NCBI GenBank assembly: GCA_003225495.1
Contig: QIAJ01000066.1
Coordinates: 7,964-59,154 of the forward strand
Origin: Acidobacteriota bacterium
GTDB taxonomy: Bacteria; Acidobacteriota; Terriglobia; Terriglobales; Acidobacteriaceae
DNA length: 51,191 bases
Direction of reading: 5' to 3'
The position numbers and the translations under genes are program-made. Under the pieces are notes generated by a model. It was not told where the DNA came from, searched no databases, and was given only the letters and a program-made list of their open reading frames with translations. Of this stretch, positions 10,702 to 47,682 are shown piece after piece. Position 1 is the first letter of the stretch. Each line of letters starts with the position of its first letter.

Positions 10702-10792
10702 GGTCAGAGGTCATTGGTCACGGGTCAGTGGTCACAGGTCACAGGGAAAATCCTGGTTTTCACCGGACCATTTGACCGCTACCCTTTGACCT
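10702..10792. repeat. Six GGTCAnn heptads plus inverted mate
   Basis: Six 7-base units follow in exact register: GGTCAGA, GGTCATT, GGTCACG, GGTCAGT, GGTCACA, GGTCACA (10702-10743). An inverted block (GGACCAT, TTGACCG, CTACCCT, TTGACCT; 10765-10792) gives GGTCAnn units on the other strand. The stop codon and last codons of the peroxiredoxin gene lie in the inverted block. This is the clearest of the heptad arrays in the window. Confidence 0.8.
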
Positions 10793-11246
10793 CGTTCTTC
10801 AAGTACTCCAGCACTTCGACTGCGTGTCCGGCCGCTTTCACGTTGTCGAAGATGTGCTTGATCTTGCCGTCCGGCGCTATGACGAATGTCATCCGGGAGA
10901 TGCCTTTGAAGATCTTCCCGTACATCGATTTGTCTTTGATCACGCCGAAGGCGCGGGCGACCTTCTTTTCGGGGTCAGCCAGCAGCGAATATGGCAGTTG
11001 ATACTTGTCCTGAAACTTTTTCTGTTTGGCGGAAGTATCTCCGGAAATCCCGAGCAATACTGCTCCCGTCCTCTTGATCTGGCTGTATGCGTCACGGAAC
11101 CCGGACGCTTCTTTCGTTCAACCAGGAGTGTCGGCTTTGGGATAGAAAAACAGCACCACTGTCTTGCCCCGAAAATCCTTCAAGGCAACTTCTTTGCCGT
11201 TCTCGTCCGTCGTACTGAAGTCGGGGGCTTTATCATTGACGTCCAT
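10779..11246 (-). CDS. bcp: Bcp/PrxQ-type peroxiredoxin, predicted selenoprotein (UGA = Sec)
   Basis: The 155-residue thioredoxin-fold peroxidase would reduce hydroperoxides in the cytoplasm. It starts at ATG 11246 behind GAGGAAAAG. The canonical text FRGKTVVLFFYPKADTPG leads to an in-frame TGA at 11120-11118 (residue 43), where the family has its peroxidatic cysteine (TPGCT). The frame then continues unbroken with TKEASGFRDAYSQIKRTGAVLLGISGD and a full C-terminal half. A SECIS-like hairpin follows the UGA, and selA is in this window, so I read the UGA as selenocysteine. The usual resolving Cys five residues later is Ser, and the protein has no Cys at all, implying a 1-Sec mechanism with an external thiol. 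An automated annotation would split it at 11118. A plain nonsense mutation is the alternative. The tail EVKG is encoded by a heptad repeat. Confidence 0.85.
11089..11108 (-). promoter_or_regulatory. Bacterial SECIS-like hairpin
   Basis: In the mRNA, 9 bases after the UGA, GCGUCCGGGUUCCGUGACGC folds as GCGUC-CGG, loop GUU, CCG-(bulged U)-GACGC: eight Watson-Crick pairs with one bulged U. The loop begins 17 bases after the UGA and its first base is G. Published bacterial SECIS models expect a loop about 16-37 bases downstream with a G in the first two loop positions, so it fits. SelB binding is inferred. Confidence 0.7.
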
Positions 11247-12543
11247 GGGATCTTTTCCTCGCCGCACTTGGTTATATCGCACCACGCTGGCCGCCGTCAC
11301 GCTGCTCATGTCGATTCAGGGGATGGCGCAAGGCACGGTCACGCAATATGGCCGCAAACCCGCCACGTCGAAAGGACCGCGCGCCATCGGACTGATCCAG
11401 CTTTTTCCGAATGGCAAAGCTCATCTGATTCCCGTCGCGATTTCGGTGGACGGCAAGTTCTTTGACGCCGGCTCCTACAAAGGCGCCCCCGTTCCGATGG
11501 CGCTCGACTTCGGAATTGTTTATGAAGGCTTCCGCGCAGGTGTTTCGCAAGGCATCTTCACCATCACTCAGCCGGGGCAGGCCAGCCATGTCTGGATGGC
11601 CGAAGGCACTTGGCTTCCCGCCGGAACCAAGGCGCCCGAAAAAGGCAAGAAGTACGAAACGCCCAATATCGAAGACAAAGATGCGCCGCCCCGGTTGCAC
11701 CGCGGCGACCCGAAGGCCGTCGACCCGCCGACCGGCGACAAGTCAACTCCGCCAGCGTCAGCGCCCGCCGCGGAAAAATCTCCTGCTTCTGCGCCCAAGC
11801 CGCAGGAATCCGCAAAAATCGAGGAGCCTGCACCGCCAATCGAAGATCCAAACCGGCCGATTCTGCGCCGGGGCAAGCCCGATCCGGCAGCTCGCCGCGA
11901 ACTTGTCAAGAATTTCGATGAGGAGGAGACTCCGGCAAAGTCACCCAAGGACCTTAAGGCCTCTCCAGGTTCGGTGCAAATAATCCCCGCAATTTCCGAT
12001 GCCGCCGGTCCGGAGCCGCGTGCTTACAACTTCTATCTCCGCCCCGGAGACGAAGCGGGTTATCGCGCCAAGGTGCTGGAACTGGCTGCCGCTGAATACA
12101 CGCGATCGATCGCGGCCATGCAGGGAAATCTGTCTGCGCGTCCACGAAAAGGCGCAGGCGCCGCGAAGCCACCCGCGCCGGCCTTCGACGACGTGAAGCT
12201 GAATATCTTCGACCTGTCCAACTCCAACGATGCAGTCCTCGTCTTCTCGGCGAAGATACGACCACATCCGTCCGCGGCTTCGGCGACGGCTGGCGAAGGC
12301 GAAGGGATCACGATGGTGGCGCGGGCAACCCTGGAAGGAGTGTTACGCCGGATTTTCTTCGTCCGCTCTGACGACCTTCATCTCGACGTCTCCGCTCGGA
12401 TGGAATTCATCGACGCCATCGACGCTGACGGCGACGGCCGCGGCGAATTGCTGTTCCGACGCACCACCGACGCCGGCACCAGTTTCGTCATTTACCGAGT
12501 AACGCCGGATCGGCTGTGGCCTTTGTATGAAGGAACACCGTAA
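11245..12543 (+). CDS. Secreted protein with Pro/Ala-rich linker, function unknown
   Basis: The ATG at 11245 gives 432 residues with a twin-arginine-like N-terminus and signal peptide (MGSFPRRTWLYRTTLAAVTL, cleavage near GMAQG). Residues about 35-140 form a beta-type domain (IGLIQLFPNGKAHLIPVAISVDGKF, FTITQPGQASHVWMAEGTWLPAG). A long Pro/Ala/Lys linker follows (about 160-260), then a C-terminal domain including FIDAIDADGDGRGELLFRR, an FG-GAP/EF-like Asp-rich element. I do not recognise the family. The start overlaps the peroxiredoxin start on the other strand (shared CATG), so each gene's upstream signals lie in the other's coding region. No ribosome site is seen for this start. Confidence 0.7.
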   Translation: MGSFPRRTWLYRTTLAAVTLLMSIQGMAQGTVTQYGRKPATSKGPRAIGLIQLFPNGKAHLIPVAISVDGKFFDAGSYKGAPVPMALDFGIVYEGFRAGVSQGIFTITQPGQASHVWMAEGTWLPAGTKAPEKGKKYETPNIEDKDAPPRLHRGDPKAVDPPTGDKSTPPASAPAAEKSPASAPKPQESAKIEEPAPPIEDPNRPILRRGKPDPAARRELVKNFDEEETPAKSPKDLKASPGSVQIIPAISDAAGPEPRAYNFYLRPGDEAGYRAKVLELAAAEYTRSIAAMQGNLSARPRKGAGAAKPPAPAFDDVKLNIFDLSNSNDAVLVFSAKIRPHPSAASATAGEGEGITMVARATLEGVLRRIFFVRSDDLHLDVSARMEFIDAIDADGDGRGELLFRRTTDAGTSFVIYRVTPDRLWPLYEGTP

Positions 12544-46254: not shown

Positions 46255-47682
46255 GTGTCCGCAATCTCCAACCCGGCGCTCTTCCAAAAGCTCCCATCTA
46301 CCGATGAGCTTCTGCGCCAAGCCGAAATCCAGAAACTAGTGGAACGCGAAGGCCACTCGCAGGTTACAGAGAGCATCCGGCTCGTACTCGAACTTCTGCG
46401 GCAAGAAATAGCCAAAGGCCGCCTCGACGAGAAGTCACTAAACCTCGCACTGGACGGGCTCTCCGGCGCCATCGCCCGCCAGCTCCAACAGTCGCTCAGG
46501 TACTCCCTGCGCAGCCTGATCAACGCCACCGGTGTGATCCTTCATACCAATCTTGGACGCGCGCCTCTGGGAGCCTCCGCACTTCAGCATATCGGCGAAA
46601 CGGCAGTGGACTACTCCAACCTCGAGTTCGATCTCGATTCCGGCGAGCGCGGCAAGCGGGATATTCACGTCCAGCGGCTGTTTCAAAAACTGTTGGCTGA
46701 GAACGCTGGCAATGCCGAACATAATTCTGCTGTCGTTTCCACCATCGTCGTCAACAACAATGCCGCCGCCGTCCTTCTCGCGCTGAATTCGCTCGCCGAA
46801 GGCGGCGAGGTCATCGTCTCGCGTGGAGAATTAGTCGAAATCGGCGGATCTTTTCGCATTCCTGACGTGATGTCGAAGTCGCAAGCCACGCTGCGCGAAG
46901 TCGGCACCACCAACCGCACGCGCATTGCCGACTACGAGCGCGCCATCAGCGACCGGACCCGCGTATTGCTACGCGTGCACCGTTCGAATTTTGAAATCAC
47001 AGGATTCACAGAGCAGCCGTTATTGGAAGAACTGGTCGCGTTGGCCCGTCGCCGAAACATTCCACTGGTGGAAGACCTGGGCAGCGGAGCCCTGTTCGAT
47101 CTGCGCTCAGTCGGCATCACCGGCGAGCCCGGCGTTCTCGACAGCCTGCGCACAGGCGTGGACGTAGTCACTTACAGCGGCGACAAGTTGCTCGGCGGCC
47201 CTCAGGCCGGTCTGATTAGCGGCCGAGCCGATCTAGTCGCCCGCATGCGATCGAACTCGCTCTTTCGGGCGTTGCGCGTGGATAAACTAACGTATGCCGC
47301 TCTGGAGGCAACGCTGCTCGCTTATGTAAAAGACGACCACGACTCCGTGCCAGTTTTGCGCATGATGCGGCTGTCCAAAGATGAGATTTCGCGACGCGCC
47401 GAATTGCTAATCGCAAGAATCAGATCATCAAAACTGAAACTGGAATTAATCGACGGTGAATCCGTAATCGGCGGTGGCGCCGCGCCATCCGCAGTTTTGC
47501 CCACACGTCTCATCGCCATAGCCCATCCCGATCAAAGCGCCGACAGATTGTGCGCCCGCCTGCGCGCGTCCGCGACGCCGGTGATCGCCCGTGTCGAGGA
47601 AGGTAAAGTTCTGCTCGATCTCCGGACTGTATTTCCTGCCCAGGAAACAACCCTCACCGCTGCCCTCGCGTCCTTAGACTGA
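46255..47682 (+). CDS. selA: L-seryl-tRNA(Sec) selenium transferase
   Basis: SelA, a PLP enzyme, converts Ser-tRNA(Sec) to Sec-tRNA(Sec) using selenophosphate, the key step for inserting selenocysteine at UGA. The 475-residue product begins at GTG 46255. It shows LPSTDELLRQAEIQKLVEREGH, the conserved LINATGVILHTNLGRAPL, YSNLEFDLDSGERGKRDIHVQRL, VVNNNAAAVLLALNSLA, VIVSRGELVEIGGSFRIPDVM, the PLP lysine K311 in TYSGDKLLGGPQAG and VDKLTYAALEATLLAY. The presence of selA supports real UGA decoding in this organism and the selenoprotein reading of the peroxiredoxin at 11 kb. selB, selC and selD are not in the window. Confidence 0.96.
   Translation: MSAISNPALFQKLPSTDELLRQAEIQKLVEREGHSQVTESIRLVLELLRQEIAKGRLDEKSLNLALDGLSGAIARQLQQSLRYSLRSLINATGVILHTNLGRAPLGASALQHIGETAVDYSNLEFDLDSGERGKRDIHVQRLFQKLLAENAGNAEHNSAVVSTIVVNNNAAAVLLALNSLAEGGEVIVSRGELVEIGGSFRIPDVMSKSQATLREVGTTNRTRIADYERAISDRTRVLLRVHRSNFEITGFTEQPLLEELVALARRRNIPLVEDLGSGALFDLRSVGITGEPGVLDSLRTGVDVVTYSGDKLLGGPQAGLISGRADLVARMRSNSLFRALRVDKLTYAALEATLLAYVKDDHDSVPVLRMMRLSKDEISRRAELLIARIRSSKLKLELIDGESVIGGGAAPSAVLPTRLIAIAHPDQSADRLCARLRASATPVIARVEEGKVLLDLRTVFPAQETTLTAALASLD

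Follow-up and report, generated by a model that had tools for sequence, protein, structure and literature searches.

The locus raises two questions: does the single TGA codon that interrupts a peroxiredoxin (Prx) reading frame specify selenocysteine (Sec), and, if it does, how would the resulting enzyme be regenerated? The frame lies on the minus strand of the window, by which we mean the whole stretch of 51,191 nucleotides that was analysed, and reads MDVNDKAPDF...YPKADTPG-TGA-TKEASGFRD...EVKG-TAG, with TGA codon 43 as its only break (Table 1).

A Bcp/PrxQ reading frame with one in-frame TGA

The preliminary description of this DNA had proposed a Bcp/PrxQ frame with a lone TGA at the peroxidatic Cys and no further break, and the family models agree with it. 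Against NCBIfam NF006960, the model for Bcp-type thiol peroxidases, the window protein scores 161.3 bits (cut-off 140), and against PF00578 it scores 140.4 (cut-off 26). It carries the PxxxTxG(C/U) active site and the conserved Arg of Bcp/PrxQ proteins, P36, T40, G42, position 43 and R118 being invariant columns among 25 aligned sequences in which Sec was entered as C. T40-P-G-U43 also matches the T-x-x-U motif of the Sec-Prx of COG1225, the Bcp type itself being assigned through NF006960, not COG1225. The UGA is aligned with the redox Cys of homologues and the sequence on both its flanks is conserved, as is looked for in a selenoprotein gene. The structure predicted from the 25 aligned sequences has a mean pLDDT of 94.4, and among PDB sequences 5enu matches best (E 3.6e-34). 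If the standard code is applied, the sole open reading frame of at least 80 amino acids that reaches the gene's own stop is a 92-residue piece with a TTG start 3' of the TGA; ordinary gene calling would therefore shorten the gene, much as had been foreseen.

Table 1. Features of the peroxiredoxin locus and of the associated selenocysteine gene, in window positions
Feature	Position	Strand	Basis or remarks
bcp/prxQ-type peroxiredoxin gene	11246..10779	(-)	155 codons, one in-frame TGA, stop TAG
TGA codon 43 in the peroxidatic place (TPG-U-T), most likely decoded as Sec	11120..11118	(-)	reading frame and homologue column
TCC codon, Ser48, in the place of the resolving Cys (+5) of most relatives	11105..11103	(-)	homologue alignment; lies in the hairpin stem
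SECIS-like hairpin, GCGUCCGGGUUCCGUGACGC	11108..11089	(-)	8 bp with a single bulged U; the apical loop, GUU (11100..11098), begins 17 nt past the UGA
GAGG, possible ribosome-binding site, 10 bases 5' of the ATG	11257..11260	(-)	sequence inspection
selA, selenocysteine synthase	46255..47682	(+)	438 bits to PF03841, inside the window

At window 11244..11247, the start codon of bcp shares bases with the probable ATG of a divergently oriented gene, whose product begins with a signal-peptide-like MGSFPRRTWLY..., so that the leader of each gene would fall inside the coding sequence of the other. Of the 12 relatives displayed, 9 have CATG where bcp begins, judged on the bcp side only, and several show purine-rich stretches resembling the GAGG of the window. 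TATAAC lies about 25 bases before the window bcp start.

The Sec-Prx of COG1225 that carry the TxxU motif are a listed selenoprotein family (PMC9312934; PMC13188914), so the window gene adds a member to a known family. A 2016 survey reports 91 Sec-Prx proteins in 78 organisms (PMC5029168), and Cys-to-Sec events are counted for Prx in a table of PMC1794560. By 2006, four selenoproteins of three families were recorded in Acidobacteria (PMC1794560), and a 2025 test set includes an Acidobacteriota genome with three known selenoproteins (PMC12013277). The window protein resembles the COG1225 Sec-Prx in its Bcp type, its T40-P-G-U43 motif, its probable Sec at the peroxidatic position and its intragenic SECIS-like hairpin; for its own part, it contains no Cys at all. 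PrxU (NCBIfam NF040737) is likewise a Sec-type peroxiredoxin of the AhpC/TSA superfamily, but the window protein, with 49.8 bits where 270 are required, falls outside that equivalog. The model is presumably named after the Eubacterium acidaminophilum selenoprotein.

TGA, its hairpin and the selenocysteine machinery

The preliminary description had suggested aligning Bcp/PrxQ homologues at column 43. In 176 distinct homologues this column holds TGA in 71 and TGC or TGT in 105, with no third residue. The set merges two collections, with four duplicate rows removed and one locus (L211, which has Cys both in this column and at +5) left out; the duplicates are still present in the 180-row tree, the paired test, the 75-row codon tallies, the Sec rows of the synonymous-identity test and the underlying SECIS-scan table, whereas the counts out of 71 and 105 are free of them. 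A contig scan gave 16 TGA and 64 Cys forms among the best 80 of 304 relatives; with the window itself, the TGA rows number 17. The 64 Cys loci are 52–68% identical to the window protein, and the same-genus locus L104 is 81% identical. In genomes of the same family, a bcp match was found in 232 of 250, and 110 loci, including the window's own, were read among the 150 matches listed, giving 66 TGA and 44 Cys forms. All listed matches with an inner TGA were read except that of G074; outside the 110 stand 39 other listed matches and 82 unlisted ones, with no stop shown or themselves not shown. Because the listed rows were read selectively, the proportion 66 of 110 should not be taken as a prevalence, nor the Cys rows as a random draw.

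SelB was found in 129 of the 250 family genomes and in 60 of the 66 with a TGA form. Five of the six TGA genomes with no SelB match have an above-cut-off tRNA-Sec, which in G223 barely passes (48.1 bits, cut-off 47); G192, the sixth, a metagenome-assembled genome (MAG) 65% complete, has neither. The host genome of the window, a draft in 261 contigs that is 91.6% complete, encodes a tRNA-Sec (65.9 bits, cut-off 47; ARAGORN SeC, anticodon tca), a SelB (365.9 bits to TIGR00475, with SelB winged-helix domains), and a SelD (365 bits to TIGR00476) with an in-frame TGA of its own in the stretch AAGUASKL; SelA, the remaining component of the set looked for, is encoded within the window itself, which the preliminary description had passed over. 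That description had set Cys-bearing relatives, together with a host genome lacking selB, selC or selD, against the Sec reading; here tRNA-Sec, SelB and SelD are all present.

Two further loci of the host genome have in-frame TGA codons. One (L095, G000:C58, 1369..1959, plus strand) is Prx-like, with a signal-like N-terminus, the TGA in FAFTGG-U-TAQ and a best family score below the cut-off, and is probably a second selenoprotein. The other (L099, G000:C88, 1357..2163, minus strand) is Prx/SelL-like, with hydrophobic N-terminal stretches and the TGA in GYW-U-PAC, and is a probable further selenoprotein.

We then compared the sequence 3' of the TGA with the published bSECIS model, which specifies an apical loop of 3–9 nt with G in the first two, a stem of 4–16 bp, a spacing of 16–37 nt and an energy of at most -7.5 (PMC13188914). 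The scan used this model as coded here, allowing one 1-nt bulge and taking the energy from the hairpin alone. The window hairpin, at -10.2 kcal/mol, fits it. Overall the model is matched by 65 of the 71 Sec forms (six fail) vs 6 of the 105 Cys forms. The codon for Gly at +6 is GGG in 60 of 65 Sec forms vs 8 of 69 Cys forms, counting those that have Gly there. Over 69 Sec rows, the ratio of observed to expected synonymous identity was 2.0 at codons +4 to +10 and 1.17 at the others; over 103 Cys rows, the corresponding values were 1.30 and 1.10. Five rows of genus g54 and L090 were set aside from the Sec rows, and L104 and L201 from the Cys rows. Synonymous sites at the hairpin are frozen in TGA forms only.

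The window hairpin by itself is not exceptional: it gave a p of about 0.10 against a synonymous-codon null and folding z-scores of -1.50, -0.23, -2.49 and -0.52 for four cuts, and is weak evidence when folded alone. Rfam at gathering thresholds gave zero matches in the window. The five forms of genus g54 (L180, L181, L183, L184 and L186) have TGA in the same column with other codons around it and lack the hairpin common to the rest; four of the five have a different, longer hairpin that fits the model, possibly a separate SECIS. A Cys form from an Armatimonadota MAG (L076, 6001..6447) shares its hairpin sequence with many Sec forms, so that such a hairpin can occur where no past use of Sec is visible.

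The UGA most likely encodes Sec43, as was first proposed, a reading to which the recurrence of TGA in 71 homologues, the SECIS-like hairpin and the frozen synonymous sites tied to TGA lend support.

The missing resolving cysteine and the reading of the UGA

The preliminary description had also passed over the want of a resolving Cys. A Cys at +5 is common, though not defining, in Bcp/PrxQ proteins; the window protein has Ser48 there, and no Cys anywhere. The position of the resolving Cys is itself inconsistent across four PrxQ structures (PMC5302317). Among the homologues, the +5 Cys is kept in 47 of 71 Sec forms and lost in 24 (14 Ser, 10 Arg); the Cys-type Bcp/PrxQ proteins (NF006960) of Terriglobia and other bacteria, which are full-length homologues of the window protein with Cys instead of Sec, retain it in 104 of 105, a single loss. 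Fifteen of the 71 Sec forms are free of Cys altogether, among them L121, of which just 80 residues are seen. The +5 codon is part of the hairpin stem, and its replacements are patterned: TCC (Ser) is paired with CGT (Arg) at +8 in 12 of 13 rows, CGT occurring in just 1 of the remaining 62 TGA rows (75 in all, duplicates included), and CGC (Arg) at +5 gives a stem that is shifted or has no bulge.

The link between Sec and loss of the resolving Cys is strong in raw counts, but is not significant once ancestry is controlled. On a quick tree of 180 rows with the trait columns masked, the minimum number of changes was 14 for the state of the resolving Cys and 14 for Sec/Cys, with weak forks leaving 70 of 176 open. 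Six supported independent pairs could be formed for loss of the resolving Cys with Sec, of which four to five were concordant and none or one opposite (median p 0.125). In addition, the aligned chain of 5enu, PrxQ-like and without Cys at +5 as is the window protein, has Leu at that position but Cys as its peroxidatic residue, so Cys-type proteins, too, can lack the +5 Cys. The Sec lineage appears able to do without its resolving Cys.

We conclude with high confidence, on comparative sequence evidence, that the gene makes a Bcp/PrxQ peroxiredoxin with Sec43, its UGA being read as Sec by means of SelB and the hairpin, with Sec chemistry, a likely reduction by external thiol and a seemingly dispensable +5 Cys. 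SelB carrying Sec-tRNA(Sec) would bind the hairpin just 3' of the UGA, both machinery and hairpin being present, and the UGA would then be read as Sec. The selenolate, by analogy with the family, would attack H2O2 or an organic peroxide in the pocket formed by P36-xxx-T40-xx-U43 and R118. Because the protein has no Cys, the usual intramolecular Cys–Cys step is impossible, and the selenenic acid would most likely be reduced directly by an external thiol, for example thioredoxin or another small thiol. We set this beside the presence in the host genome of a thioredoxin reductase (384.6 bits, cut-off 343.45) and the want of any match there to a single, E. coli-type, glutathione synthase model. 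The +5 codon, being in the SECIS stem, would meanwhile drift to those Ser and Arg codons that still form the hairpin, as comparison of the homologues suggests.

A partner protein might instead provide the resolving thiol, or the Sec form might act mainly as a sensor or relay, with no straight route from thioredoxin. The Cys-free protein would suit such a scheme, and eight further matches to the window Prx elsewhere in the host genome could include partners; no partner, however, was identified, the search extending to these eight matches, and the +5 Cys is kept in those 47 Sec relatives. We regard this alternative as possible, though the less likely.

If the TGA were a true stop, the gene would be either a recent nonsense pseudogene or the product of a sequencing or assembly error, and TGC or TGT is indeed one step from TGA, and the genome is a draft of 261 contigs. 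Yet the same-column TGA recurs in 71 of the 176 distinct homologues, including one in a genome assembled in one contig (G032), and the SECIS-like hairpin and frozen synonymous sites go with it. Moreover, dN/dS 3' of the TGA was 0.11–0.20 in all six pairs of the window with a near relative, rough values with dS near or above 1, and 0.07–0.11 in all five closer pairs among relatives; such low values indicate that the downstream sequence is translated and under purifying selection. A true stop is accordingly very improbable. Decoding as a residue other than Sec (Trp or Cys, through suppression or an altered code) would also account for a frame open past the UGA and is just as improbable, since TGA is an ordinary stop for 8 of the 36 mechanically picked window frames of at least 200 codons, tRNA-Sec, SelA, SelB and SelD are all in the genome, and the alternative residue in the column is Cys in 105 of 105.

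Probable exchange between Sec and Cys

Two Cys forms stand close to Sec forms and keep the hairpin. L104, from a genome (G028) of the window's own genus, has TGT and is the window's sister (support 99/96) in a DNA tree built after masking of the hairpin region. L201, from G139, has TGC and is placed among Sec forms, with Ser at +5 and hence no resolving Cys. Both genomes still carry SelB, and both loci look like Sec-to-Cys reversions. For L104, reversion is favoured because of its sister position and retained hairpin, but is not proven, because grouping all 11 Cys rows from the window's genus into a single clade lowers the log-likelihood by 17.5, and an AU test does not reject that topology (p 0.114). 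Documented Sec-to-Cys cases are described as rare, and primarily of FdhA and SelD, in a 2026 review (PMC13188914), and the table of the 2006 survey has none for Prx (PMC1794560).

Changes in the other direction may also have occurred. The Bcp of Anaeromyxobacter soli (L090, 6001..6447) has TGA in this column too, followed by a hairpin of another kind; Cys may have given way to Sec independently there. L173 and L154 are Sec forms that stand isolated and carry Arg at +5. L154 (G192) lies among Cys forms of its own genus, a placement that suggests local regain or transfer, or else repeated loss in sisters.

These comparisons can be drawn together in a proposal that we hold with as much doubt as conviction: Sec may free PrxQ of its resolving Cys, the +5 codon then following mainly the SECIS hairpin and drifting towards Ser or Arg, to give a Cys-free, single-Sec Prx reduced directly by outside thiol, and the same clade may also revert, leaving Cys enzymes with a SECIS remnant (L104 and L201). 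Among the openly accessible papers listed, titles and abstract openings give no account of a Cys-free Sec-PrxQ or of Prx reversion. If the proposal is true, one family would display both directions of Sec/Cys exchange, together with an RNA constraint that chooses an amino acid.

For annotation, the consequence is that standard procedures would truncate the window gene or miss it. For the enzyme, a Sec-Prx free of Cys makes the chemistry of the repair step worth testing. Finally, a single genus contains both Sec and Cys forms, some with the resolving Cys and some lacking it: a natural experiment that allows a direct test of whether a Sec enzyme can dispense with the resolving Cys and of how Sec reverts to Cys.
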